A DNA stretch of 64,000 nucleotides from a virus: positions 1 through 64,000 of IMG/VR virus record IMGVR_UViG_3300046691_000092. One strand, 5' to 3'. Position numbers and translations under genes: made by a program. Shown here piece after piece: positions 38,641 through 60,388 of the stretch. Position 1 is the stretch's first letter. Every line of letters starts with the position of its first letter. The notes beneath the pieces are model-generated. The model made no database searches, was not told the DNA's origin, and was given only the letters and a program-made list of their open reading frames with translations.

Positions 38641-40164
38641 TTACACCGGAATCCCGAAAATGTAATATCGAATGCCGACGATCGGCGTTTCGTCAAATTC
38701 GTTCACAAGCTGATATCCGGGGTTAACTTGCGTCTGTTCAAGATACCGGCGCGTCGGGGCACCGACGAAAGTGAAAAAGCGTGCTTCGTTGGTGGTCAAT
38801 CGGCAATAACTGGAATCGCCGCCCGTGTAATAGCTCTTTCCGGCGCTTGGTGGCTGGACATACCCGAAGCTCGTGTAAGGCATACGGACGCGACGGCTGA
38901 CCGTCGTGGAACCTAGCGACGTGATAGTTCCGCCCCCGTGGACCGTCCAATATTTGATGAACGGGAATAGCCCGGAACTATCAAAAGAAACGACGTTCTG
39001 AAGCGATCCGGACCCGATACCGATGTAACCTTCCTTGACGATCTGAAGCACCGGCAAGCGGCTATCAATCATGATGTCGGAAAGGCGCGGCGGGTTGGCC
39101 GCACCGGGGCGGAGAAATTGCACGACGTCCCGCGTACCGTCGTTGAACTGCCTCAAGACCTTATTCGATCCGCTGGAAATCGAACCGTCGTCTTGAGCGT
39201 AAACGATGAACCGCGCCCGACATGTACCGTACGGGTTGGAGAAAATGATACTGTTGCCCGATACGGTGTAATCAGCGCCATATTGCGTTTCGTCGCTAAG
39301 CGGGCTGCTAGGGAAATAGACGGTCGACCCTTGATAGAAAATGATGTCAACTACCAGTTCCCCGGAAATGACCACGCCGGGCAAGGAAACCGTGTAAGAA
39401 CTGCTACCGGACGGAATTAGAATGTCATCCGCCGCGATTACCTTTGCGGGTCGTGATGAACTGTCGAATGCCATTTGTGAAGGTGTCGCCACCCGCACGT
39501 CATAGCCCGGCTTCGACACCCGGCAAAAGTTCTTGGTGATCTGAACGTTCATCTGACCGGGCACCGGCGAAAGCGCCTGATTGATGATCGGCGAGGAGTC
39601 GGCGGGAAGATTCCACATGAGCAATTTGATATTGTTCGGCTGTTCGCTGTTCATGCGGAATTCGCCGCCGTAGCTCATGAAGAACCCGCCGCCGAAGCCT
39701 GAAACGCTGGCGTTTTCCATCCACCCGACACTACCGCCTTGCGGCTGACGGTAAATCCCGGCGCGGTCCTGCCAACCCAAAAAGGCGAGCGACACGCGTC
39801 CGCCTACATACCATCCGCTGCTAGGGCTGACATATTTCACATCGAACGCCGGGAAGTTATATTCCAGTCCGGAAAAATGACTATTTCGATAGAAATTGTA
39901 TTGTTGGCCGTTGTTGCTGACCTTGTTTGAAAAGCGGGTGAAGTTCGAATTGCCCGCGCCGCCCGGTAAGTATGAGCTTCCGGCACCGCCAAGCTGCGAC
40001 ACGAAGTCGCTTCCCTGATAGCGAAGTTGCGCCGCCCATTTCGAGTTAAACCGGAATTTCCCGGATTGACTATCGGGCGTGGTCTTCGGATCGTCCGCCG
40101 TGCTTTGCATGATCTTAATACACGCGGTCCCCGTGTAATCAAGGCCGATTAATGTTCTTGGCAT
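38641..40164 (-). CDS. Tail protein, 507 aa
   Basis: Beta-rich, aromatic, Gly/Ser-rich sequence (VSGFGGGFFMSYGGEFRMNS) typical of phage tail tip or fibre proteins. It lies between the tip protein and the fibre. The start codon shares one base with the tip gene stop. No enzymatic motif seen. Confidence 0.65.
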   Translation of the reverse strand: MPRTLIGLDYTGTACIKIMQSTADDPKTTPDSQSGKFRFNSKWAAQLRYQGSDFVSQLGGAGSSYLPGGAGNSNFTRFSNKVSNNGQQYNFYRNSHFSGLEYNFPAFDVKYVSPSSGWYVGGRVSLAFLGWQDRAGIYRQPQGGSVGWMENASVSGFGGGFFMSYGGEFRMNSEQPNNIKLLMWNLPADSSPIINQALSPVPGQMNVQITKNFCRVSKPGYDVRVATPSQMAFDSSSRPAKVIAADDILIPSGSSSYTVSLPGVVISGELVVDIIFYQGSTVYFPSSPLSDETQYGADYTVSGNSIIFSNPYGTCRARFIVYAQDDGSISSGSNKVLRQFNDGTRDVVQFLRPGAANPPRLSDIMIDSRLPVLQIVKEGYIGIGSGSLQNVVSFDSSGLFPFIKYWTVHGGGTITSLGSTTVSRRVRMPYTSFGYVQPPSAGKSYYTGGDSSYCRLTTNEARFFTFVGAPTRRYLEQTQVNPGYQLVNEFDETPIVGIRYYIFGIPV

Positions 40165-42830
40165 TAGCTGTAAATCTCGATTGTTCCGACTTCGATGTTG
40201 ATCACCATTTTACCGGTCGGGCTCGTGATCAAACCGGCGTTGACCGTGCCGATGTTGGCGACGTTCAGCGTTAGTTCACTGTCCTGAAAAATCAAAGGAC
40301 TTTGTTTCGTGACCGGGTCGTCAGGATCGGCAACAACGAACTGATCGGCGAGGATGACCACGCGCGACGGATCGGCGGTGTTGACCGGGACGTCAATGAA
40401 AAGCCCGGCAGATTTGAACACGCCCGCGCCACCGGCGCGCGCTTCCATCGCGATACGTGCGGCAACCCCGGCTGACCCGGCGCTAGCCGTCATGCGGAAA
40501 TTCGCCGTCGCCGTGTCGCCCGCAACGTTCGCGGCAGAAAGCGCCGTGATCGCCTGTGACAATGCGTTGCCTTGGGCGTCGATTTCAGCCGACAACGATT
40601 CGATTGCCGTCGCCACCACGTCGTTTACATAGGTGGTCAATTCTTCGATACGGAGCGATAGCGCGGAATTCGGGCCGGTCGCAACGATGATCGAATTCGT
40701 ATAGCTCGCCGTCACGCCTTGCTGAACGCTGACAAGCTCCGTACGCAGCTTTTGCCGATCGGTGTAATCCCCGAAGTCCTGATCCATCGTCAGGCGCGCA
40801 ATGCGCTGTTGTTCAAGGATCGTCTGTCGGACGCCGTCACGAACCCACTTCGTCGCGTCGCTGACCAGATCGTTGACGCCGTCAAGGATACCCGGCAAGT
40901 AAACATCTTTTTCGCCGATCAGGACGTTAGGTGTACGAACGTCCAGCCAATCCGACCATTGCGTTTGACGGTCAGTGAACGGCACGAGAATGCCGCGCGC
41001 CTGATAATCGGTGTTCGGTAAAAACTGTCCCTGAAGCACGACGGACGGCGCGAGAACAAGCGGGTCATAAGGAACCTCGCCGTCAAACATGATATCAGTC
41101 GAGCCATCGAGTCGCACCTGAACGCGGACCCGCGCGACGTCGGTCAGTTCACCGGCAAAGAATACCTGAATGGACGGGCGGCGGTCGTCGCCGTCGTTGT
41201 CCTTGATGATCGCGGGAAGAACCTGCCAACCCTGCATTGGTTGCGGAGCGGGGAAGCTTGGCAGCAACGGAACCGTTTCATAGGGCAGTTCGTCCGTTTC
41301 CGGGTTCCAATCGTAATCGGACGGGTCGTTTTCCCTGATCGTGGTATCTTGCACGAGCGACGAACCGCCCGTGATCGCTTCAAGGTCAAACGCCTTGTTG
41401 ATATAGCCGTTGTGTGCCGATGACCACGAAACCACGTCTAGCGGTTCAAGTAACCATGCTTCGGGCGGCAAGGCATGTTGGTGGCGGCGGAAACGTCGAC
41501 CGTTCTTCAGTGCCGCCGCGCCGAGACGTTGCGCCGTCGGGTTGCTCAAAGTCCACGGCAACGAAACCGACATGGGCAGTTCGCGGTTATCGTCGCTGGC
41601 GATCATTGTCGCGTCGCGGCGTTCCGGCGATTCCTTGCTTGTCCATTTTTCATTCGGTTCCGTGTAGGTCAGCCGAATGATGTTGTATGTTTCTTCAAGG
41701 CCGGGGAAGGGTGAGTAACCTTGCTCGCGGCTGATGATAACGTTATCGTCGGTGAACGCGAAGATCGGCGCACCGGGCGGACCGACACGGACCTTGTAGA
41801 CGCCGCCGATTTCGGCGATCAGGCCGGACGCGCCGCGCAACAGTTCCTCTACCGACTTCGCGGGTTCGACGTCGCATTCAATAATGCCGCCGCCGTGGAA
41901 TTGCGGTTCGCTGCCGACAATGACGTCACACGCATTCAGCGCTGCCATCCACGACGCGGCGGGAAGCCGGAACGCGGGCCAATTCTGACCGCCGTAAACC
42001 CATTCGTTGCCGTAGTAGATACCGCGCATGACGTTGTACGCACGCACCATGTTGTTGTTTGACGCTTCCCACGTCGCCGGGTTATTCCAGCGGTGCGCGC
42101 CCGATCCGCCGACGGATGAATCCTTGCGGATGTCGTAAAGCTTGATCGACGGAATTTCGAAGGTCAGGCTAGGGAAGCCACCGGCCCACAAGCCGTTGTT
42201 CTGGTAACGCGCGGTGAACGTCGCATAGCACACGCCGCGCCCGACCATGTCGCCGAGCCAAGGGTAATCGGGGTGCGTGCCGAACTTCGCGGTCAGATAC
42301 GGGTTGACTGTCGTTTGCGTGCCGTCGAAGAAGTCAACCCACGCGTAATCCTGACCGTCCCGACGATATTCAAGGATCGGCCAACCCATCGCCGTTTTAG
42401 AATCGCCGAACAGGATCGTAACGCGCTGATCGTTCGCCCACAGGACGAAATTGCTAGACGCAACCGGAAGCGCCGACAGTGCTATGACGTCAACGGCGTA
42501 TTCGTTCGGGGTCTTGCCGTTCGCCCACGAGCCACAATAAACACGAACGCCCGATGTCGCGGTGTAACCGGTCGGGAAGAATAGCGAGTTGTCGCCACCC
42601 ACCTTCAACTGAATGCTTGTGCCGGGGTCTTTCTGACCGGGTTGTTTCTTGGTGAATAGCCCTTTGAGCAGACTCGCGCCGACGGAAATCGCCATGCCGA
42701 TCACGGCTTTGACAAGGAAACCGCCGATCGCACTTGATGCAAACGCACCGACCGCCGCGACGACAGGACCGGCTTGCGCCGTCTCTGTCAATGCCAGAAG
42801 CGCGACAATGACCCAAAGGATAAAGTTCAT
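40164..42830 (-). CDS. Tail tip protein (lambda J-like)
   Basis: 888 residues. The N-terminal hydrophobic Gly/Ala region (GAFASSAIGGFLVKAVIGMA) resembles the hydrophobic start of tip-attachment proteins. The middle holds baseplate-hub-like folds (EETYNIIRLTYTEPNEKW) and a fibronectin-like part, and the C-terminus is a DUF1983-like stretch (PTGKMVINIEVGTIEIYS). It would form the central tail tip and contact the host. Confidence 0.8.
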   Translation of the reverse strand: MNFILWVIVALLALTETAQAGPVVAAVGAFASSAIGGFLVKAVIGMAISVGASLLKGLFTKKQPGQKDPGTSIQLKVGGDNSLFFPTGYTATSGVRVYCGSWANGKTPNEYAVDVIALSALPVASSNFVLWANDQRVTILFGDSKTAMGWPILEYRRDGQDYAWVDFFDGTQTTVNPYLTAKFGTHPDYPWLGDMVGRGVCYATFTARYQNNGLWAGGFPSLTFEIPSIKLYDIRKDSSVGGSGAHRWNNPATWEASNNNMVRAYNVMRGIYYGNEWVYGGQNWPAFRLPAASWMAALNACDVIVGSEPQFHGGGIIECDVEPAKSVEELLRGASGLIAEIGGVYKVRVGPPGAPIFAFTDDNVIISREQGYSPFPGLEETYNIIRLTYTEPNEKWTSKESPERRDATMIASDDNRELPMSVSLPWTLSNPTAQRLGAAALKNGRRFRRHQHALPPEAWLLEPLDVVSWSSAHNGYINKAFDLEAITGGSSLVQDTTIRENDPSDYDWNPETDELPYETVPLLPSFPAPQPMQGWQVLPAIIKDNDGDDRRPSIQVFFAGELTDVARVRVQVRLDGSTDIMFDGEVPYDPLVLAPSVVLQGQFLPNTDYQARGILVPFTDRQTQWSDWLDVRTPNVLIGEKDVYLPGILDGVNDLVSDATKWVRDGVRQTILEQQRIARLTMDQDFGDYTDRQKLRTELVSVQQGVTASYTNSIIVATGPNSALSLRIEELTTYVNDVVATAIESLSAEIDAQGNALSQAITALSAANVAGDTATANFRMTASAGSAGVAARIAMEARAGGAGVFKSAGLFIDVPVNTADPSRVVILADQFVVADPDDPVTKQSPLIFQDSELTLNVANIGTVNAGLITSPTGKMVINIEVGTIEIYS

Positions 42831-49049: not shown

Positions 49050-49527
49050 TTGTAGCTTTCGCCTTTTCGATTTCCGCTTGCAGGCGCTTCACGCCCCAAC
49101 GACCATCGAAGTCAACGTTCAGGGCTTTTGCTTCAGCGCGAAGCACGTCGATGTCAGGTTCCGACTCCGGTGCGACGACCGGGGCAGTGTTTTCAGGAGC
49201 GGCACCCGGTAGGCCGGGAAGTCCCGGAGCATTCGCCGGTGTGGCGGTTTCCGGCTCACCGGCGACAGGTTCGGCGACAGGTTCGGCGACTTCAGCCGGG
49301 GCGAACGGATCGGTTTCAAACCGCGAAATGCCTTCGTTCAGTGCATCCCATGTCACGCGATGCACGATGTGACGCATTTCGAATAGTTGCCGGAGTCGGC
49401 GCGGAGAAAACGCCGACTCCGGTACTGCGTCCCCCGGAGAAAGGGACGTGTCACCCGCGAGCAATTCGCGGCGGGTGACAAAATCCGTGCTGGCGTCGAA
49501 AGGTAACGACCAGACACTTTTACGCAT
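49033..49527 (-). CDS. Head protein with GLPG linker and SAP/LEM-like end
   Basis: 164 residues from ATG 49527, overlapping the capsid stop by 8 nt. A folded N-terminus, then a Pro/Glu/Ala linker containing PANAPGLPGLPGAAP, and a C-terminal helix-extended-helix unit (DVLRAEAKALNVDFDGRWGV) as in SAP/LEM-type domains of phage head proteins. Possible neck or DNA-contact function. Confidence 0.6.
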   Translation of the reverse strand: MRKSVWSLPFDASTDFVTRRELLAGDTSLSPGDAVPESAFSPRRLRQLFEMRHIVHRVTWDALNEGISRFETDPFAPAEVAEPVAEPVAGEPETATPANAPGLPGLPGAAPENTAPVVAPESEPDIDVLRAEAKALNVDFDGRWGVKRLQAEIEKAKATNGESA

Positions 49528-50554
49528 CGGCGGCAACCGCGTTGCTGAAGAACACGCCGAGCGATTCGCCGATCAGGCGGGAATCCCATGCACCTTCGAT
49601 TTCGATGCGGTCCGCGTTCAGGTGTTCCATGCGGAATTTCTTCACACGGAAGCCCTGACGGGAAGCACCAATCCAGCCGTTCCACGAGAACGTCAGACCG
49701 GCAGCGGGCATCATCGTGGATGCTACGCGCGGGGTGTAGACCAGAAGCGCGCCCGTGGCGAAAATGAAGTTCGTGTTCGCATCGGTGCCGGGAATAGCGC
49801 CGACGGTGTTGCTGTTGACGACGGCTTCGGCGACAAGGATTTCATCGACTTCGAGCAGCGCGGCCATTGCCTGACGGTTGACCTGTGCGGCACCGTTCGG
49901 AGTCTGACCGTACTTGACGCGGTCAACAAGGTCCGGGTGGTCGACAAGGTCATCATAGGTCTTCTTGCCGAGAACAAGCTTGTTCGGCTTGAAGCCGGTG
50001 CGGGCCTGAACGCGGCGCTTGGCTTCGCGGATGTCTTCGATCGGGGTCGAAGCGGCCTGATCCCACTGGACGAACTGACCGGCGGTCGGGCCGGAAGCGA
50101 CGCCCGCAAGATCGGTTGCCCACTTGCCGGTTGTCAGGAACTTCGTGACGAAGTCGTTTTCTTTGCGGATCAGCGAAGCGTTCGTCAGAATGTCCGTCGC
50201 CTGACTGTCGAGCGAGAACACGGAGTCGGCGTTGCCGCGCGTGTTGTCCGAAATGTCGTGGTGCAGCGCCCAAACGTACGCGAAGTACGATTCTTGCGAC
50301 TGGACCATGCCGATACCTGCCGACTCGGTGCCCGGCGCGCGCTGGCGCATGACGTCCTTGTTGAACTGTTCCGGATTGAAATTCCAGATCAGGTCAGCCT
50401 GTTTCGCAACCGGCACGATCGGAAAGACCTTGTCGGCAATGAAGTTGTCGGCGGATTGCATGTAGGCAACCGACACGTTCGTCAGTGCGGCCTTGACATG
50501 CACGTCGCCCGGCATGGTGATAACACCGGCCTTTAGAATATTCTGTTCGCTCAT
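49520..50554 (-). CDS. Major capsid protein
   Basis: 344 residues. KAALTNVSVAYMQSADNFIA, FPIVPVAKQADLIWNFN, then NKLVLGKKTYDDLVDHPDLV and VVNSNTVGAIPGTDANTNFI match large phage capsid proteins of the HK97 fold (Mu/T-type major capsid family). It lies after decoration and scaffold genes. No cleavable N-terminal delta domain is evident, consistent with the separate scaffold. Confidence 0.85.
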   Translation of the reverse strand: MSEQNILKAGVITMPGDVHVKAALTNVSVAYMQSADNFIADKVFPIVPVAKQADLIWNFNPEQFNKDVMRQRAPGTESAGIGMVQSQESYFAYVWALHHDISDNTRGNADSVFSLDSQATDILTNASLIRKENDFVTKFLTTGKWATDLAGVASGPTAGQFVQWDQAASTPIEDIREAKRRVQARTGFKPNKLVLGKKTYDDLVDHPDLVDRVKYGQTPNGAAQVNRQAMAALLEVDEILVAEAVVNSNTVGAIPGTDANTNFIFATGALLVYTPRVASTMMPAAGLTFSWNGWIGASRQGFRVKKFRMEHLNADRIEIEGAWDSRLIGESLGVFFSNAVAADA

Positions 50555-51629: not shown

Positions 51630-52055
51630 GTCGTTGTGTTCCTTTGCGATAACTGTGGTGAACAGCTTTTCGATATCGTCAGTGTTACCATCGATATCAG
51701 GGGATTGCATAGCGACAACGAATTGTGCTACGCTTTCCGCTATTTTACCCTGTCGATCGTCGCCCGAAAGTGATTCATCCGCGACGATAGAGCAGACAGA
51801 ATCGCGCAACGCGTCCAGAAGCGGCCAAACCGCCTCTTTTGCTTCCCACTTGCGACGGCACTCTTCGTCATCGGCCATGAAGTCGTTGAACGAAGCCGCG
51901 CCGTCATCGGTGGAAAGGTATTTCGTGATCGTCTCAATTGTCGGTGAATCGTCGGATTTCATAATGGTCACGAGCGCGCCGGATTGTGCCGGAACGGTCA
52001 CGCCGCTGATTTCCTTCAGGTGCAACGTTTTGATGATCTTGCGTTCTTTGGTCAT
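50964..52055 (-). CDS. Protease C-terminal segment fused to scaffold, 363 aa
   Basis: ATGA-coupled to the protease gene, with GGGGAG upstream. Residues 1-35 (LHLKEISGVTVPAQSGALVT) match the last strands of the XkdF/prohead-protease fold (L-E-I-S-x-V-x-x-PA), as if the protease domain were completed by this protein. From about 143 it is a scaffold: a long Lys/Glu/Ala coiled coil (LTKKLDEAETLAKFSDAEKA). An internal start at 51629 probably yields scaffold alone. Confidence 0.65.
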   Translation of the reverse strand: MTKERKIIKTLHLKEISGVTVPAQSGALVTIMKSDDSPTIETITKYLSTDDGAASFNDFMADDEECRRKWEAKEAVWPLLDALRDSVCSIVADESLSGDDRQGKIAESVAQFVVAMQSPDIDGNTDDIEKLFTTVIAKEHNDMSEELKKALDASTAQVAELTKKLDEAETLAKFSDAEKAYLAKADKEAADKFKAASEDERKKTLEKAASEDDVFKSVDGIEIRKSAIGAPMFDILKAQDARLAKANEELAKAHEATRTVELTKVAETDYGNLPGTSVEKVAVLKAMGKMGEAERGTLTAMLKAAQTGLSGAFNERGTSAIGVDIAKSAKIETLAKAYQEQHPGTSIEVAKTAVINANPDLYE

Positions 52056-52789
52056 GCGGGTATCAACTCCCCTGAACCGCCGATAGAAAAGCCACTGTAA
52101 GTCCCGTCGCGGAACTTCTGAAGCATCGGTTCATTGTCCGGTTTCATAGCGATCATGAGCCCCGTTTGATCGGAGCGAATGCCCATCGCTTCGGCGATAT
52201 CTTCCGTCACCGGAAACGCGAACACGACTTTGCCTTTTTCGCCGCCCACATGCATTTCTTTCGCGATGCGATCGTTTTGCATGTATTCGGATGTACCCTT
52301 CAACATAACATCTTCGGGGATGTGGTGACCTTGCGTGTCGAAGTGCGCGACGCCGTCAATCTTGGAAATGATCGCCCATCCGAACACGAGCCCAAGCGAA
52401 TCATTGACCTTCGTCAGCTTGACTTGGTTCGTCACCGGGGAAATGTCGGCGAAGTGGGCGTCAAGCGTTTCCGCGCCGTCCAGCCAATGCGCAACCGCCC
52501 GGTGATGACCGTCGGCGATGTAAGATTTGCCGTTGTGGATAACCACGAGCGGCTTTTTGCCGGACTTGTCGGCGCTTGCCCGGATCGCTTCAACCTTGCC
52601 GGTCGACACGCGGTTTTGCATGGCGGTCAAGGCGCTGATCGCGAAAGGCATGGTCGGCAGTGACTGCGTGTCCGTCAGCGCGCCGAAGAAACGCGGAACC
52701 TGATCTTCCCGGAGCGATCCGAGAATCTGACCGTCATAATTGAACGGAATAGCCGAATGTTCGTTGTCGATCGGTGTAAGTGTGCGCAT
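52052..52789 (-). CDS. ParB-like domain fused to XkdF-type prohead protease
   Basis: 245 residues. Residues 20-120 carry a ParB/Srx-like motif (LVVIHNGKSYIADGHHRAVA, DGHHR). Residues 130-245 match XkdF-like protease: LGLVFGWAIISKIDGVAHFD, HHIPEDVMLKGTSEYMQ, GLMIAMKPDNEPMLQKFRDG, TYSGFSIGGSGE. The final family strand is missing here and begins the next gene. No Shine-Dalgarno before ATG 52789; late motif at 52798-52820. Confidence 0.7.
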   Translation of the reverse strand: MRTLTPIDNEHSAIPFNYDGQILGSLREDQVPRFFGALTDTQSLPTMPFAISALTAMQNRVSTGKVEAIRASADKSGKKPLVVIHNGKSYIADGHHRAVAHWLDGAETLDAHFADISPVTNQVKLTKVNDSLGLVFGWAIISKIDGVAHFDTQGHHIPEDVMLKGTSEYMQNDRIAKEMHVGGEKGKVVFAFPVTEDIAEAMGIRSDQTGLMIAMKPDNEPMLQKFRDGTYSGFSIGGSGELIPA

Positions 52790-53736: not shown

Positions 53737-53825
53737 CCGCGAACCCCCTAATCATCGGCGAAGGCGCGTTTGCGCTCCTGATTATCTTCCTGTGGCTTTA
53801 CTCGGTATATTGGGCGATCCGTTGA
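53733..53825 (+). CDS. Single-span membrane peptide, 30 aa
   Basis: ATGA start, TTGA end. ANPLIIGEGAFALLIIFLWL forms one membrane helix. Its size is typical of phage inner-membrane peptides that alter host functions, but nothing specific is known. Confidence 0.55.
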   Translation: MTANPLIIGEGAFALLIIFLWLYSVYWAIR

Positions 53826-54049
53826 ACACTATCGAAAAACTGACCCAATACAGTCAGCACGTTCAGGATGAAGCGACGACAACCGCCGACCTGTTGAACG
53901 ACGCGTCGGCACTACTGACGGACGCGTGCGCCGTGATTGACCAACTCATATCGGCGCAACAATCGCTCTTGCGCCGTCACGGCTATGAACCGTATAGCGA
54001 ATCCTGTAACGCGGGGTACGCACTGCAAAAGCGGATCAGGGGATATTGA
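53822..54049 (+). CDS. Hypothetical helical protein, 75 aa
   Basis: TTG start in TTGA overlap. Helical bundle type (VQDEATTTADLLNDASALLT) with two Cys. Unknown. Confidence 0.55.
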   Translation: MNTIEKLTQYSQHVQDEATTTADLLNDASALLTDACAVIDQLISAQQSLLRRHGYEPYSESCNAGYALQKRIRGY

Positions 54050-54240
54050 TGACCAAGCGATACATTACGACGGAACCGTTTCAGGATTGGGACGGTCAGC
54101 ACATCCGCGCCGGGGAAATCGGCGAACTTGCCATGCAAGGCGCGAGCAAGGGCGGTCGGTTCTTTTGGAACCTGATACGTGACGGTGCGGTGATCGCGGT
54201 CACGCTTGGGCGTCCGCCTGTCAAGGTTCACCGGCTATGA
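54049..54240 (+). CDS. Hypothetical SH3-like protein, 63 aa
   Basis: TGATG coupling; TTG 54046 would add one residue. KRYITTEPFQDWDGQHIRAG, then GELAMQGASKGGRFFWNLIR. Small beta protein, unknown. Confidence 0.6.
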   Translation: MTKRYITTEPFQDWDGQHIRAGEIGELAMQGASKGGRFFWNLIRDGAVIAVTLGRPPVKVHRL

Positions 54241-54464
54241 AAATCACCGTTTCGTTTGACGATGTTCATTGTTCCCGAATACCCGTCGGTCAATGGCTCG
54301 CAATGGACTCGTACTTTCACGATGCCTTGCGGTCACCGGTTACTATCGACACGCCGCCTTTTCTTCGCGACATGACCGATGTGCAAAGGTCACTGTATTC
54401 GTCAACTATGGGCATTTTTCGCGAAATTTGGGCGGCGCAAGACAGGCTGGAAAACAATGAATGA
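54237..54464 (+). CDS. Hypothetical protein, 75 aa
   Basis: ATGA start. Helical with a beta start (MKITVSFDDVHCSRIPVGQW). Unknown. Overlaps the next gene by 8 nt. Confidence 0.6.
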   Translation: MKITVSFDDVHCSRIPVGQWLAMDSYFHDALRSPVTIDTPPFLRDMTDVQRSLYSSTMGIFREIWAAQDRLENNE

Positions 54465-54735
54465 AAAGATGCGGCAAGCATTCGAGAAAGCCGGTTTCAA
54501 GCTTGGTCGCGTCACCCATACCGGCGAGCCGTTGTTTCTCCGCAAATGGGAAACGCAAGACGTTCTTCCGCTGGACCTAAGCATTGAAGCGTGTTTGAAA
54601 ACTATGGAAGAATTTCAACGCGCGTACGATAAGATTATGCTGACGCGCCGCGAAGCGCGTCAAGCTCTATTCACGCGGCAAGAAGCTGCTGATAGCCAAG
54701 ACGATCGCGTTCGTAAACCTGACTATAGCTCATGA
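54457..54735 (+). CDS. Hypothetical protein, 92 aa
   Basis: ATG 54457. Last gene of the island; its 3' 65 nt overlap the convergent spike gene. Charged helical C-terminus (KIMLTRREARQALFTRQEAA). Confidence 0.55.
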   Translation: MNEKMRQAFEKAGFKLGRVTHTGEPLFLRKWETQDVLPLDLSIEACLKTMEEFQRAYDKIMLTRREARQALFTRQEAADSQDDRVRKPDYSS

Positions 54736-56272
54736 ACTTGAAGCCAAGTTGCTTTGCATACGAAAGCCAGTCGTAAAAGTCTTGGGTCGCGATGTCGATC
54801 GAACCGCCAGCCGGGGTTATGTTGTGGATGTACGGGAATAGCGTGCCGCCGACCGCCGCGACTTTTTCAAGGTCCAGCTTCATGTTGGCGAGCGGGGTTA
54901 GCGTGTAACCCTGACCCGGAATCATCTGTGCTTGATCGCCGAACCCAAAGCGAGTGAAGAACGGACGATAAGCCGCCGCGCCTGACGTACCGCCGCCCGT
55001 CGTGGTTGACCACAGGCCGCAACCGGCAGCTTTCAACGCGGCGGGAAGACCCGGCAACGTGAACGGGCTGGAAAGATCGATGAACGCCAGTCGCGTTACA
55101 GCGGCGTTGATGACCGTGCCCGGCGTAAAGGTGATCGTCGTTCCGGTGATGTCGATAATGGTCGCACCGGACACTTTGTTTGCACCGAAACCGCCGAACG
55201 CCTTCATCCCGATAGCCGGGACCGTTCCGGTAGGCGACGCCGACAGGAGTGTACTATAGGTGATGACGTTCGACCCGGTCGCAACAACGTCGTTGGACCT
55301 GACGGATATGTTCGGAACGCCGCCGTGTGCACCACTCGGAACGGTGTCCGTTGCCATGAAATGGCCTTCAGGGTAACACCCGTGGATAGCACCGCGAGGC
55401 ATTCCGTTGCTGACCAGATAGTCACGGACGGTAAGCATGGCTGCAACGGCACCTGCCGGGTCGTCCCAAAAGAAGTATGAGAAATCCGACGGACTGTCGC
55501 AGCAAACATCGTGCCCATAGGCGTAAAGGATGTTTTGAAGGCTTGACAAAGTGTATTTGTTCGGCTGACCGACATTGACCGGGTCGCACATGACACTAAA
55601 GAAAGCGCCCGGTCCCAAGACGTCACGATAGAACGGATGTGCAACCGAGACGGCGGAATTGTGGTCGTCGTCCATGCGCAAGCAAAGCGTTGGTTCACCA
55701 CGGCAGTTCGCAACAGCGGCGTGATAGGTGACTTCGGCGTTGCTTGGTGTGCGCGTGCTGTAACGGGGACGAATCTTGATATCACCCACGCCGACCGGCA
55801 GCGCCGTAAACGCGGACTTCGGGAATGCTACCCATTGCGCACCGGGCGGGACGGTGTCGGAATTGACGTTGATCGATACGCCAGTATAGGACGACGCGCG
55901 CCCGATTTCCAACTGTACCGTATTGCCCGCATAGCGATCCCACGAAACAAGAAACGCGATAGTGTCGCCGAAGTCCGTTGCAGGATCGTATTGCGTGGCA
56001 AGTGTCTTCGGTCCGGCAATACCCTGACCGGTGCCGACCGCCGTCGTCGTGAACTTGACGCTGTTCGCCACTCCGGGAATCGAAGACGTGTCAAGCGACG
56101 CGGTGCAATTCGACGCGCTTGTACTGTATCCGGTAAGGCTCGTGAACAGGTCAAGAACCAACGGCTTAGGCAGCGACGGACCGCCGCCACCATTTGCACC
56201 ACGAGCGCGCAAGCCAAGGCGCAAGCCAAGACCCATCGCGCCGATATCGAACGGCAGCGAACGAACCGTCAT
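54671..56272 (-). CDS. Head spike with polysaccharide-deacetylase-like domain
   Basis: 533 residues. A beta-rich N-terminal half (residues 40-190) is followed by a NodB-like region: LCLRMDDDHNSAVSVAHPFY (Asp cluster), FFSVMCDPVNVGQPN, ILYAYGHDVCCDS (in the H-x-x-x-H/S position) and GCYPEGHF; the C-terminus ends with a barrel-type DFYDWLSYAKQLGFKFMSYS. Encoded directly after the spike base, it is the likely head spike fibre and may trim or bind capsule sugars. Not all deacetylase ligands are clear, so activity is uncertain. Confidence 0.7.
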   Translation of the reverse strand: MTVRSLPFDIGAMGLGLRLGLRARGANGGGGPSLPKPLVLDLFTSLTGYSTSASNCTASLDTSSIPGVANSVKFTTTAVGTGQGIAGPKTLATQYDPATDFGDTIAFLVSWDRYAGNTVQLEIGRASSYTGVSINVNSDTVPPGAQWVAFPKSAFTALPVGVGDIKIRPRYSTRTPSNAEVTYHAAVANCRGEPTLCLRMDDDHNSAVSVAHPFYRDVLGPGAFFSVMCDPVNVGQPNKYTLSSLQNILYAYGHDVCCDSPSDFSYFFWDDPAGAVAAMLTVRDYLVSNGMPRGAIHGCYPEGHFMATDTVPSGAHGGVPNISVRSNDVVATGSNVITYSTLLSASPTGTVPAIGMKAFGGFGANKVSGATIIDITGTTITFTPGTVINAAVTRLAFIDLSSPFTLPGLPAALKAAGCGLWSTTTGGGTSGAAAYRPFFTRFGFGDQAQMIPGQGYTLTPLANMKLDLEKVAAVGGTLFPYIHNITPAGGSIDIATQDFYDWLSYAKQLGFKFMSYSQVYERDRLGYQQLLAA

Positions 56273-56578
56273 TTAGATAAAACCCTTGATACCGGTAATG
56301 GTAGCGGTTCCGGTCACGTTGATACGAACAATCTTGCCGGTGTACTGAACGCCCGGCTGACATGACGGATAGATATCGGAAGAACCGTCCGCCATGAGAA
56401 CGGAGACGTTGCCCGCCGTCGTCACCATGAAGGCACGAATCGGCTTGGCAAAATTGACAGTGTCGGACGGGGTAACGGCAACGATACCTTGCGGAACCAA
56501 CGCTTCCTTTTGGTTCTTTACCTGTTCGGCGAGAATACCCATGTGATCAAAATCCCGGTTTAAGTCAGGATCAGTCAT
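56273..56578 (-). CDS. Head spike base protein (RCAP_Rcc01079-like)
   Basis: 101 residues. ILAEQVKNQKEALVPQGIVA, DTVNFAKPIRAFMVTTAGNV and PSCQPGVQYTGKIVRINVTG belong to the spike base family named after Rhodobacter capsulatus rcc01079, which anchors head spikes on the gene transfer agent capsid vertices. It directly precedes the spike gene, as in that agent. Confidence 0.75.
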   Translation of the reverse strand: MTDPDLNRDFDHMGILAEQVKNQKEALVPQGIVAVTPSDTVNFAKPIRAFMVTTAGNVSVLMADGSSDIYPSCQPGVQYTGKIVRINVTGTATITGIKGFI

Positions 56579-56600: not shown

Positions 56601-58202
56601 CTACATGATGCGGTATGAACACACGCAGCGGCAGCGGATACGGTCTTCAGCCGGGGCGGATAGATCGCCGGGGAACATCAAACGGTTGCCGAGCCCGGAC
56701 ATAAACAAGCCGTCCATTCCGATCACGACTTGACCGCCGCGTGCACCAAGATAGACATGCGACGGACGCGTTCGACCGTCCAACGTGGAATTCCATTTCT
56801 TTTCGACGTCGCCCGGATCGATACCCGCCATGTCGATCGTTTGCAACATCGCTTCGTGGTTCGCCATGCTTGTTGCCGTGGTCGACTCCGTCAACGCGAT
56901 CGTGTCGGCCCGGAATGCAACGAACCGTTCCCGATAACGATCAACCATCCGGTCAATCTGTTCCGGGGTCAAAGGCGTGTCGGTCTTCTGTGCACGTTGA
57001 ACGGTGCGATCGAAACGCGCGTCGCGCAATGCACGGTCAAGCGCATCCGCTGAATTCGTTTCGAGTGCCCGGCGATAGTTCTTCACCGCTTCGTTCTGTT
57101 TGCGGGTCAGGCCGATGGATTCGCGAATGTCACGCGCCGCCGTCTTCGGGTGTTTGCCTTCCTGCAACGCTTCGGTGACCGCCTGACGCACCACGTCGCG
57201 TTGTTCGTCACTCACTTGCCGGATGAACTGATATGCCAAGTCGTTCGCGCTCGCGGCGGCGCGCGGGTTAGTCGGATCGAACGATATCCCAACCGACGGG
57301 CGAAGACCACGGGCGAAGTTTTCCAGATCAAGCGCCGTCTGTTTCGTCGCGGCGACTTCTTCGGCAGCTTGTCGTGCGGCGTTCGCAGCGCTCGCGGCGG
57401 CTTGTGCGGCTTGTTCGGGCGCGGACCCTGCCATTGCCTGTGCACGATCGGCGAGCTTCGCAGCGTCTTCCGCCGCTTGGATCGCGGCGCGGGCGCTGTT
57501 CGATATTGCACCGGTGACGTCGTCGGGCAGTTCCCGGATTTGCGCGGCGGACCGTAGCGCCGCCTGAATGGATGTCATCGCACGTTCGGCGGATAGGCGC
57601 GCTTCACGGGCGTCACTGATCGCGGCTTGTGACGCAACGCGGGACACGCTGACCACATCGTCAACCGCCTTGACCTGATCGGCGACGTCTCGAATCGTAT
57701 AGACGGAATGGGTCGCGGCAGCTTCAGCGGCGCGCGCTTCGTTGGCGACGTTCCCGAACGTGACCGTCAGGTTCGAAGGTCGCATTCCTTCAATTGCGGC
57801 GCTGAAGTCGCGCGCCATTTCCTTACCCGCGACGGAATACCCATCTTTCAGGGTTGCGACCAGACGGGCAAGCGGAGCGTCGACAAGCGCGACCACTTCG
57901 TCAACCGAGTTCCGGGCAAGCAAGGACTGTATCAGGTTCAACGTCTGTTCGGAGCGCATGACCTGAACGTACTGGACGAACGACGAACGCAGCGCCACAC
58001 CCAACGCGAGTGCCACGACGGCAAGCCGGTTGTCGCCGATGGATCGCAACGCGGCGGTGATCGCGCCACCTTCGACAAGGTCGGCAACTGATCCGATGAT
58101 GCTATCTTCCGGGCCGGAATCGAGAAAGCGCGCGAATGTCGGTTGATACCGCTTCGGAACCTTCGTTGCGATCAGTTCGGCGAGTCGTTCAGTGTTCGTC
58201 AA
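56601..58202 (-). CDS. Minor head protein, MuF/SPP1 gp7-like
   Basis: 533 residues from TTG 58202. The N-terminal half is an unusually long Ala-rich helical region (AAASAANAARQAAEEVAATK). The C-terminal MuF domain has RFVAFRADTIALTESTTATS, EKKWNSTLDGRTRPSHVYLG and ends PAEDRIRCRCVCSYRIM, the typical R-C-x-C close. It binds the portal and helps head assembly or is injected. Confidence 0.85.
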   Translation of the reverse strand: MTNTERLAELIATKVPKRYQPTFARFLDSGPEDSIIGSVADLVEGGAITAALRSIGDNRLAVVALALGVALRSSFVQYVQVMRSEQTLNLIQSLLARNSVDEVVALVDAPLARLVATLKDGYSVAGKEMARDFSAAIEGMRPSNLTVTFGNVANEARAAEAAATHSVYTIRDVADQVKAVDDVVSVSRVASQAAISDAREARLSAERAMTSIQAALRSAAQIRELPDDVTGAISNSARAAIQAAEDAAKLADRAQAMAGSAPEQAAQAAASAANAARQAAEEVAATKQTALDLENFARGLRPSVGISFDPTNPRAAASANDLAYQFIRQVSDEQRDVVRQAVTEALQEGKHPKTAARDIRESIGLTRKQNEAVKNYRRALETNSADALDRALRDARFDRTVQRAQKTDTPLTPEQIDRMVDRYRERFVAFRADTIALTESTTATSMANHEAMLQTIDMAGIDPGDVEKKWNSTLDGRTRPSHVYLGARGGQVVIGMDGLFMSGLGNRLMFPGDLSAPAEDRIRCRCVCSYRIM

Positions 58203-58215
58203 GTTTCATCGTCCA

Positions 58216-58803
58216 TCAGAACCCCCGGTTCACGCCCCAACGTCCGCGCACGCCGACGACGGACTCTTTGCACGTCCCATACGACGAAGAACCGGCGTTG
58301 CCAAGCCCCGCGCCGAGCGCCGAACAAAGAAACGCACCTAGCAGGTTCATGACGGATTTCGGGAACGGGGAAACCGAGCCATTGCCCGACACGATGAACG
58401 ACAGGTTCCGGAAGTATTCGATTTCCACGGACCCGGCCTTCAGCCGCTTGGTGCCGCCGTCTGCCGATGCTTCGACGTTGCCGGTCATCTGATCGGGAAG
58501 TTCCGGATTTGCCGCCGTCAGCACCGCGAGCAAGATTGCGGCGGCTTCGTATTTGCTCGCCGGAACAGTCACGCCATCGATAACGCGCGGCCATTCAAGC
58601 GGCTGATCCGCGACGGACTTTTCACCCTGCCAGCACTGCGAATCAATCCAGCGCGTCGCGCTGACGATCGCCCGACCCCTGTCGTCGTCAAGCAATGCTT
58701 CCCACGCGGCAGCGTTCAGCGATCCGTTCGCGTATGTATCAACCTGATCGACCGATACATACGCGTCGTAATTCTTGCCGCCGATTGTGATCGTCACGGA
58801 CAT
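58216..58803 (-). CDS. Head-tail connector (DnaT-like/gp6-like), 195 aa
   Basis: IGGKNYDAYVSVDQVDTYAN, ALLDDDRGRAIVSATRWIDS, and SVEIEYF are the standard order of phage adaptor proteins with the so-called DnaT-like fold. It would form the ring below the portal. Confidence 0.75.
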   Translation of the reverse strand: MSVTITIGGKNYDAYVSVDQVDTYANGSLNAAAWEALLDDDRGRAIVSATRWIDSQCWQGEKSVADQPLEWPRVIDGVTVPASKYEAAAILLAVLTAANPELPDQMTGNVEASADGGTKRLKAGSVEIEYFRNLSFIVSGNGSVSPFPKSVMNLLGAFLCSALGAGLGNAGSSSYGTCKESVVGVRGRWGVNRGF

Positions 58804-58812
58804 GGTTGTTCC

Positions 58813-59019
58813 TTACGAAATGATACCGGCGTTCCGGAGCGACGTCAGCAACGCGAGGTATTCGGCGGCGGTCGGGTTTGCACCGGCAGCGTTCGCCACG
58901 GCAACGCCCTTCTTCACGACACCGGCGACCGTGGTCGTGGCAACTGCGAATGCGTCCGAACCGTCCGCCTTACGAAAGCCCGGTGCCATGACCGGACGCT
59001 TTGATTTATCGACGCCCAT
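58813..59019 (-). CDS. Head fibre-like protein, 68 aa
   Basis: VKKGVAVANAAGANPTAAEY, then LLTSLRNAGIIS, is the short motif seen at the C-terminus of phage head fibre proteins; here it stands alone behind a basic N-terminus. It overlaps the portal 3' end by 14 nt. Confidence 0.6.
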   Translation of the reverse strand: MGVDKSKRPVMAPGFRKADGSDAFAVATTTVAGVVKKGVAVANAAGANPTAAEYLALLTSLRNAGIIS

Positions 59020-60388
59020 TTTTCTTTATTCCTTTTCCGGTTGTGTCCGTGGATAGATCATCCATTGGGACATATTCTTCAGCCTCACTAACGCCGAGTA
59101 GCGTACGCACGTCATTGATAACCGGATCAGTAGGCGACAGGATCGCGCCCGCCGTCGCCAAGTCCTTCAACGCGGCGGTGATTTCTTCGACGCTCTTGAA
59201 GCTGACGTCTTCCGGCTGAAGCGACGGCTTCAACTTGTCGTCAAGCCCGTTCAGTTTCCAGAGCGGGCCGAAAAAGTCCTTGTCGAACGCTTCGCCGATA
59301 TCCTTGGTGCAGGAATTGACCGTCAGGTACAGATTGCGCGACTTGTCTTCCGACAGGGCACGCGAACCGCTATCCTTGCCAACAAGCAACCCTTCGACGC
59401 CAAGGATCAGCGCCATATCGTACATTTCGCGTTCAATCGCCTTGCCGACTGCCTCAATACCCGAAGCGTCGCCGGTCAGGAGTTCGATACCCCAACGCTT
59501 CGTTGCGGAAGGCGTCGCGCCCGTGTCGGTTTGACTCATGTAAACCGAGCTATCAAGCAACAGGCCGGTGTTCGAAGACTTGGCACGCATAGACACGAAT
59601 TGCGAAAGCCCGTTGATCATCGAATCAGCGACGCCGCGTTCGATCTGACCGGCTGCAACGGCGGCTTCGATTTCAGCGCGCGGAGCATAGCCGATCGGAA
59701 CGCCCCGGAAGTCCCGTTCAAAGCCGGAACCTTCGATGCGCTTGTATTCGGCGTATCGGTCAGCCGGTTCAGCCAAGTGACGCACAAGGCCGAAGCCTTC
59801 CGGGCTATCCGTTAGCGAATCATCGACAAGATACACGAGCTTCGCACGCGGCAAGTACAACTGTTGAAACGTCAGCGGCGAGAACTGAACAACGCCCTTG
59901 ACGTCGCCGTTGTCATCAATATCCCACTGATGAATTGTGTGTTGCGGGCGGGGCGCGAGACGCTTGATACCGATTCGCCCGTCGTCGCGCTTCTTGGCGG
60001 TCCATTCCTGAATTCCGAAACCATAGAAACGGAACATCGCGGCACGGCGAATAGCCTTGTGCCAAGATTGATCCATATCATACATGCATTCTTCCGCGAA
60101 GTCGGCGGCGGCTTTTGCCTCGCTCGAATCATCGGCGGGTTCGACCTTCCATTCAGGGGAAGCGACAAGGTTCAGGAAATAGTGAACGCCAGCCGCAACG
60201 ATGGACACATTCGCGAGAATGTCAGAAGCGGTAATCCACTTCTGTTCGCCGATCAGTTTCGGGTTTCGTTCTTCGGGGGTGTTGACATATCCGCCTACGA
60301 CCTGAAAACCCGGCACGCCCATATTGCGCATGGGTTTGACGGGTTCAGGTTTAACGCCAACAGGAGTAACGCCGGGTAAATCTGCCAT
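59006..60388 (-). CDS. Portal protein (DUF935-like)
   Basis: 460 residues. IRRAAMFRFYGFGIQEWTAK, then LPRAKLVYLVDDSLTDSPEG, GLVRHLAEPADRYAEYKRIE and DSGSRALSEDKS follow the DUF935-type portal family. It forms the dodecameric DNA entry ring. No Shine-Dalgarno; the late motif at 60398-60420 leads into ATG 60388. Confidence 0.85.
   Translation of the reverse strand: MADLPGVTPVGVKPEPVKPMRNMGVPGFQVVGGYVNTPEERNPKLIGEQKWITASDILANVSIVAAGVHYFLNLVASPEWKVEPADDSSEAKAAADFAEECMYDMDQSWHKAIRRAAMFRFYGFGIQEWTAKKRDDGRIGIKRLAPRPQHTIHQWDIDDNGDVKGVVQFSPLTFQQLYLPRAKLVYLVDDSLTDSPEGFGLVRHLAEPADRYAEYKRIEGSGFERDFRGVPIGYAPRAEIEAAVAAGQIERGVADSMINGLSQFVSMRAKSSNTGLLLDSSVYMSQTDTGATPSATKRWGIELLTGDASGIEAVGKAIEREMYDMALILGVEGLLVGKDSGSRALSEDKSRNLYLTVNSCTKDIGEAFDKDFFGPLWKLNGLDDKLKPSLQPEDVSFKSVEEITAALKDLATAGAILSPTDPVINDVRTLLGVSEAEEYVPMDDLSTDTTGKGIKKNGRR

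Follow-up and report, generated by a model that had tools for sequence, protein, structure and literature searches.

The 64,000-nucleotide stretch of viral DNA analyzed here (the window) comes from a 67,540-base record of a rhizobial-type phage, and it encodes on its minus strand a small protein of a head-spike base family, directly followed by a 533-residue fibre. We consider it rather probable, at roughly 0.68, that the two form a capsid-vertex spike like that of the Rhodobacter gene transfer agent (RcGTA), with an exchangeable, glycan-directed and NodB-related body. This reading is carried by the family membership of the base, a tag at the start of the fibre, the position of both genes within the head cluster, the relationship of the fibre to NodB and the exchange of fibre bodies at this locus. 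The base family and the gene position, known here from the genes alone, place the spike at the vertices by inference, while its stoichiometry, glycan binding and any catalysis are likewise proposals, worded as such below.

Genomic context

The head and tail genes lie on the minus strand, in the order portal (59006–60388; PF06074, 9.4e-16; phrog_113, 1.1e-42), small head fibre, head-tail adaptor (58216–58803; phrog_477, 4.3e-28), MuF-like head morphogenesis protein (56601–58202; phrog_3517, 1.3e-69), the base and fibre pair, prohead protease-like protein (52052–52789; PF14550, 5.4e-05; phrog_1530, 1e-24), major capsid protein of the E family (49520–50554; PF03864, 2e-08; phrog_1005, 9.3e-81), tail tube, tape measure, distal tail protein and a separate tail fibre (40164–42830; phrog_5616, 1.7e-197). 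The nearest named relatives, found via the base gene, are the Rhizobium phages RHph_Y5A, RHph_Y60 and RHph_TM3_3_9, whose portal, MuF, protease and capsid proteins are 83–92% identical to those of the window, where they fall within the fetched stretch; for the flanking head genes overall, the range is 75–92%.

The small head fibre (58813–59019, minus strand; 68 residues), situated between portal and adaptor, matches phrog_20838 (head fiber protein, 2.8e-08) and is unrelated to the 533-residue fibre. With this second capsid fibre gene, there may be two decoration systems on the head. Between fibre and protease, the head genes are split by a cluster of small ORFs on the plus strand (53790–54735), and the relatives likewise have small opposite-strand genes at this place.

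The spike base

The gene at 56.3–56.5 kb clearly belongs, by a family-level sequence match, to the RcGTA head-spike base family. Its reading frame is open from 56273 to 56578 on the minus strand (101 residues), but the conserved start of its relatives (MGILAEQ...) falls at 56542, which gives a protein of 89 residues (56273–56542). This protein matches the NCBIfam model NF048002 (‘spike base protein, RCAP_Rcc01079 family’) at 2.7e-12 and 46.8 bits, well above the curated cut-off of 28 bits, so that the family assignment made in a preliminary description of this DNA holds, as do its coordinates for both genes. It is the only copy of the family in the 67.5 kb record and is 69–74% identical, over 89 residues, to the bases of Y5A, Y60 and TM3_3_9. 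Across 46 base sequences, including that of the window, a TPSD motif (T24, P25, S26, D27) as well as G44 and R73 are invariant.

Alone, the sequence matches the solved RcGTA base weakly (E 0.3). A structure model computed from the 46 sequences is β-rich (pLDDT 73), and in a Foldseek search of all PDB chains with this model, the RcGTA base (6tb9) ranks second, with an E-value of 0.05 that is not significant by itself; a superposition of the two by VIA-align yields a Z-score of 5.2, mid-range among unrelated jellyrolls. The modeled fold is consistent with the jellyroll of the RcGTA base. Elsewhere in the family, four contigs (L056, L058, L064 and L074) carry two tandem base genes with no tagged fibre adjoining them.

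The N-terminal tag of the fibre

The ATG of the fibre gene (54671–56272, minus strand) comes directly after the stop codon of the base. Its first 22 residues, MTVRSLPFDIGAMGLGLRLGLR (56207–56272, minus strand), contain five alternating hydrophobic residues, M13, L15, L17, L19 and L21. In RcGTA, cryo-EM has located eleven spikes on capsid pentamers, with a base pentamer at the vertices; fibre residues 2–10 (IALGLGLGL) make a five-point star within this pentamer, and the head fibres bind capsule (PMC7296036). Similar alternating starts occur in the fibres that follow the bases of Paracoccus phage Pben1, Rhodobacter phage RcapNL (for whose fibre no relative was found in the PDB) and Verrucomicrobia phage P8625, and the fibres of Y5A, Y60 and TM3_3_9 share the start seen in the window.

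Such starts are enriched behind base genes. In 67 non-redundant base loci, runs of at least five alternating hydrophobic residues were found in 9 of the 67 ORFs after base genes, as compared to 20 of 4325 other ORF ends from the same loci, and runs of at least four in 16 and 124, respectively (Fisher p about 1e-10 for both run lengths, and 2e-10 for runs of at least five). The rule of exactly five is not strict, as the runs in the three closest relatives are four residues long; and many base-family genes lack any tagged neighbor, so that the base can also serve otherwise.

The pair in the window resembles the RcGTA head spike (Rcc01079 base and Rcc01080 fibre; PDB 6TB9) in its base family, in the pairing of base and fibre, in the N-terminal tag of five hydrophobic residues and in its presumed contact with capsule. 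It differs in that the genes lie within the head cluster, in the E-family capsid and in the NodB-related fibre body; the resemblance between the bases is weak in sequence, and for the fibres, the comparison covers the N-terminus. The preliminary description had likewise pictured spikes as on RcGTA: base family, head-cluster position and docking-type N-terminus speak for it, while the vertex site is a reading of the genes. We would expect a pentamer of the small, β-rich base to sit on the five-fold vertices of the capsid, with one copy of the 533-residue fibre plugged into it by its tag, such that M13, L15, L17, L19 and L21 each offer one hydrophobic side chain to one base subunit.

A NodB-related region in the fibre body

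The fibre has no match in Pfam (including PF01522), PHROGs or NCBIfam, and PDB sequence searches with the fibre or its two-row profile returned chance matches only. A tblastn match to an Actinomyces deacetylase (E 0.01), however, pointed to a CE4 subfamily that has members in haloarchaea and elsewhere. In a profile-profile comparison by hhalign with nine CE4-type proteins, residues 195–307 align with a probability of 96.7% and an E-value of 4e-10; the score of 79.8 lies far outside the controls, of which the best of 200 column shuffles reached 24.7 and the reversed profile 21.9. The earlier proposal of a NodB-like region in this large protein is thereby borne out, for a part of its length only.

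On the minus strand, the body can be divided into a likely β-sandwich region, resembling carbohydrate-binding domains (residues 37–190; 55703–56164), which aligns with the galactose-binding-like part of the turret head of the archaeal virus HFTV1 and with haloarchaeal CE4 proteins; the NodB/CE4-like region with motifs 1–3 (residues 195–307; 55352–55690); an insertion of about 110 residues relative to other CE4-type proteins (residues 308–415; 55028–55351); and a C-terminal part (residues 416–533 and stop; 54671–55027). We thus picture the fibre beyond its tag as a probable carbohydrate-binding β domain, followed by what would be a NodB-related barrel with an inserted β region. A single-sequence fold model of the fibre was unusable (pLDDT 32).

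The alignment equates D201 with the catalytic aspartate and D202 with the metal-binding aspartate of the tandem pair in motif 1, P301 with the proline of motif 3 and H483 with the invariant catalytic histidine of motif 5; the arginine of motif 3 is not evident. The metal-binding histidine pair of motif 2 is absent, and D259 and D263 stand in its place, both in the window protein and in that of Rhizobium podophage I40. In the CE4 subfamily used for comparison, the second of these histidines is often missing, but the first is always kept. H254, in ‘GHDVCC’, was considered as a motif-2 histidine and rejected, since it aligns with a tryptophan position among the CE4 relatives and is a methionine in I40. 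The preliminary description had envisaged that acetylated capsule sugars may be modified, and for this the sequence gives no support in the form of intact metal ligands: aspartates replace both motif-2 histidines here, as they do in the sole close relative. Based on its sequence, we regard the domain as NodB-related and do not class it as a CE4 deacetylase. Its metal site would consist of three aspartates, where Asp/His/His is usual, and the catalytic aspartate and histidine are kept.

Relation to the HFTV1 turret

When the profile of the CE4 subfamily was compared to the PDB, the best match, over nearly the full length of the profile, was gp31, the turret head of HFTV1 (E 1.9e-31). This turret consists of a gp30 base and a head with galactose-binding-like and Zn-bound deacetylase-like domains, and the authors suggest that it binds and degrades glycans from the capsid (PMC12494034). 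In the alignment, the fibre resembles this arrangement, and a joint profile gives 95.8% over alignment columns 49–319; the N-terminal region of the fibre alone is not significant, and neither is a direct comparison of the fibre with gp31 alone. The two systems share a small base gene directly before the head gene (PDB 8QPG for HFTV1) and are linked via the same CE4 subfamily; they may also share a layout of β-sandwich and polysaccharide-deacetylase-like domain. By contrast, HFTV1 is an archaeal virus with a hexameric base on capsid hexamers and a trimeric head that keeps the histidine pair with Zn, whereas the base in the window is a member of the RcGTA family.

HFTV1 thus already offers an example of a virus that carries an enzyme-like protein on its head, and the earlier suggestion of an enzyme on the head of this phage is supported in principle, even though the metal-binding histidines are replaced here. 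What appears to be new is that a phage would display such a protein on a five-fold base of the RcGTA type and exchange the bodies; in the open-access literature, we found no paper describing an RcGTA-type base that displays exchangeable enzyme-like bodies. A distant relative of the HFTV1 turret-head deacetylase, about 25% identical, is encoded on plasmid pHGLR2 of the HFTV1 host Haloferax gibbonsii LR2-5 (L119), and possibly represents the cellular source of the turret-head gene.

Exchange of fibre bodies

Between the window and Y5A, Y60 and TM3_3_9, the base is kept, as are the flanking head genes and, in the fibre, the first 20–35 residues, but the body of the window fibre has no counterpart in these three phages at the same locus. 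The fibre body of TM3_3_9 is annotated as an SGNH hydrolase, that of Y60 contains BNR_4 and that of Y5A belongs to the phrog_8480 esterase family. In Y5A, two tandem tagged genes and a pectin-lyase-fold gene stand behind a single base (L004:8279–13263). At other base loci, there are fibres whose bodies are ConA-like or apparently have no enzymatic function.

The closest relative of the window body is instead found in the T7-like Rhizobium podophages RHph_I38 and RHph_I40, in a ‘CE4 superfamily protein’ (QXV73679) that is 69% identical from residue 43 to the end and has D201, D202, D259, D263 and H483 in common with it. There, the body bears another N-terminus, which is shared, at 69–80%, by the otherwise different proteins of RHph_TM33 (GDSL) and RHEph09, other Cuernavacavirus proteins; all of these stand behind a conserved 101-residue protein that is unrelated to the base. 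In Cuernavacavirus, this 101-residue protein (L002:40752–41057, L128:3501–3806, L129:3501–3806) precedes variable proteins that start MADGVV..RL.SLK.G.DRR.L.RTPGT.PH, an apparent second plug-in carrier. Phage LKA1 has a weak relative, annotated as a putative structural protein. The esterase body of Y5A, too, has a podophage relative, a protein of RHEph27 that is 53% identical and lacks the tag. As two bodies are shared between base loci and podophages, the sequences suggest that fibre bodies move between two carrier systems, each behind its own tag. Relatives of the fibre were not found in viral and genome contigs, nor in the 397 genomes searched from the order to which Kaistia belongs, the latter search being run without a positive control.

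Binding or catalysis

The initial contact with a rhizobial host, a reversible one to its exopolysaccharide or capsule, is most likely made by the fibre body. The body may act as a glycan-binding head only, with a catalytically dead NodB-like domain, a view to which we give somewhat less than even odds. It accounts for the loss of both metal-binding histidines and has a precedent in 2VYO, which lacks both and was judged probably inactive (PMC10967932); the ConA-like and apparently non-enzymatic bodies at other base loci fit it as well. The remaining catalytic aspartate and histidine and the motif-3 proline sit less easily with it, since there is no need for a dead domain to retain them.

Alternatively, the fibre could be an active esterase or deacetylase whose metal site is unusual in being all-Asp (or Asp plus Cys), editing acylated host polysaccharide from the head; we deem this possible, at odds of around one in three. 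D201 and H483 are kept as a catalytic pair along with D202 and P301, and D259 and D263 are the same in the podophage protein, but with only one close relative, such conservation is weak evidence. De-acylation is a recurring theme, given the SGNH/GDSL-type esterases among the alternative fibres at this locus and in podophages; the HFTV1 turret head has its Zn-bound deacetylase-like site (PMC12494034), and the tailspike of Acinetobacter phage Aristophanes, a structural protein as the fibre would be, de-O-acetylates capsule of its host, albeit with an SGNH domain and from the tail (PMC8471582). On the other hand, we found in the open-access literature no characterized CE4 enzyme whose site is all-Asp, 2VYO speaks against activity, the motif-3 arginine is not evident and there is no Pfam match. 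Modification of acetylated capsule sugars, as put forward in the preliminary description, is hence possible on sequence grounds, and a role in binding only is about as likely.

Head or tail

The spike-base family name could be misleading here and the pair could form a tail side fibre, which we regard as improbable. PHROGs labels the base family ‘tail fiber protein’, and some of its genes lie near tail genes (in RcapNL and P8625, where the base comes after them, and at loci L021 and L096). Yet the RcGTA member was seen on capsid vertices by cryo-EM (PMC7296036), portals, a head protease and connectors are among the genes that immediately follow base-family relatives, and in the window the pair lies between MuF and prohead protease, with a separate tail fibre gene present. 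That the fibre gene is non-structural cargo (a moron) inserted behind the base by chance is very improbable: an exchangeable body, with relatives among unrelated phages, would fit this, but here it stands behind a tag common to other fibres at the locus, and base stop and fibre start abut.

Implications

The host range of phages and their breaching of capsules are usually explained by the tail. The vertex spike proposed here probably serves as an instrument on the capsid with which to grip, and perhaps edit, the sugar coat of the host. More speculatively, and in our view rather unlikely as a whole, vertex spikes could be a general plug-in platform, in which a pentameric base reads a tag of about 20 residues with five alternating hydrophobic positions and whole glycan-active bodies are swapped, including exchange with T7-like podophages, whose carrier and tag differ, and in which the body of this phage, related to NodB and with an all-Asp metal site, acts on host polysaccharide from the head. 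If true, part of host recognition would reside on the capsid, in a head-borne body that is enzyme-like and swappable. Such a body, attached by a short tag with a logic that echoes the five-fold vertex symmetry, would explain why unrelated phages of the same hosts have receptor-binding bodies in common. The tag rule would then allow head fibres to be recognized from sequence alone.
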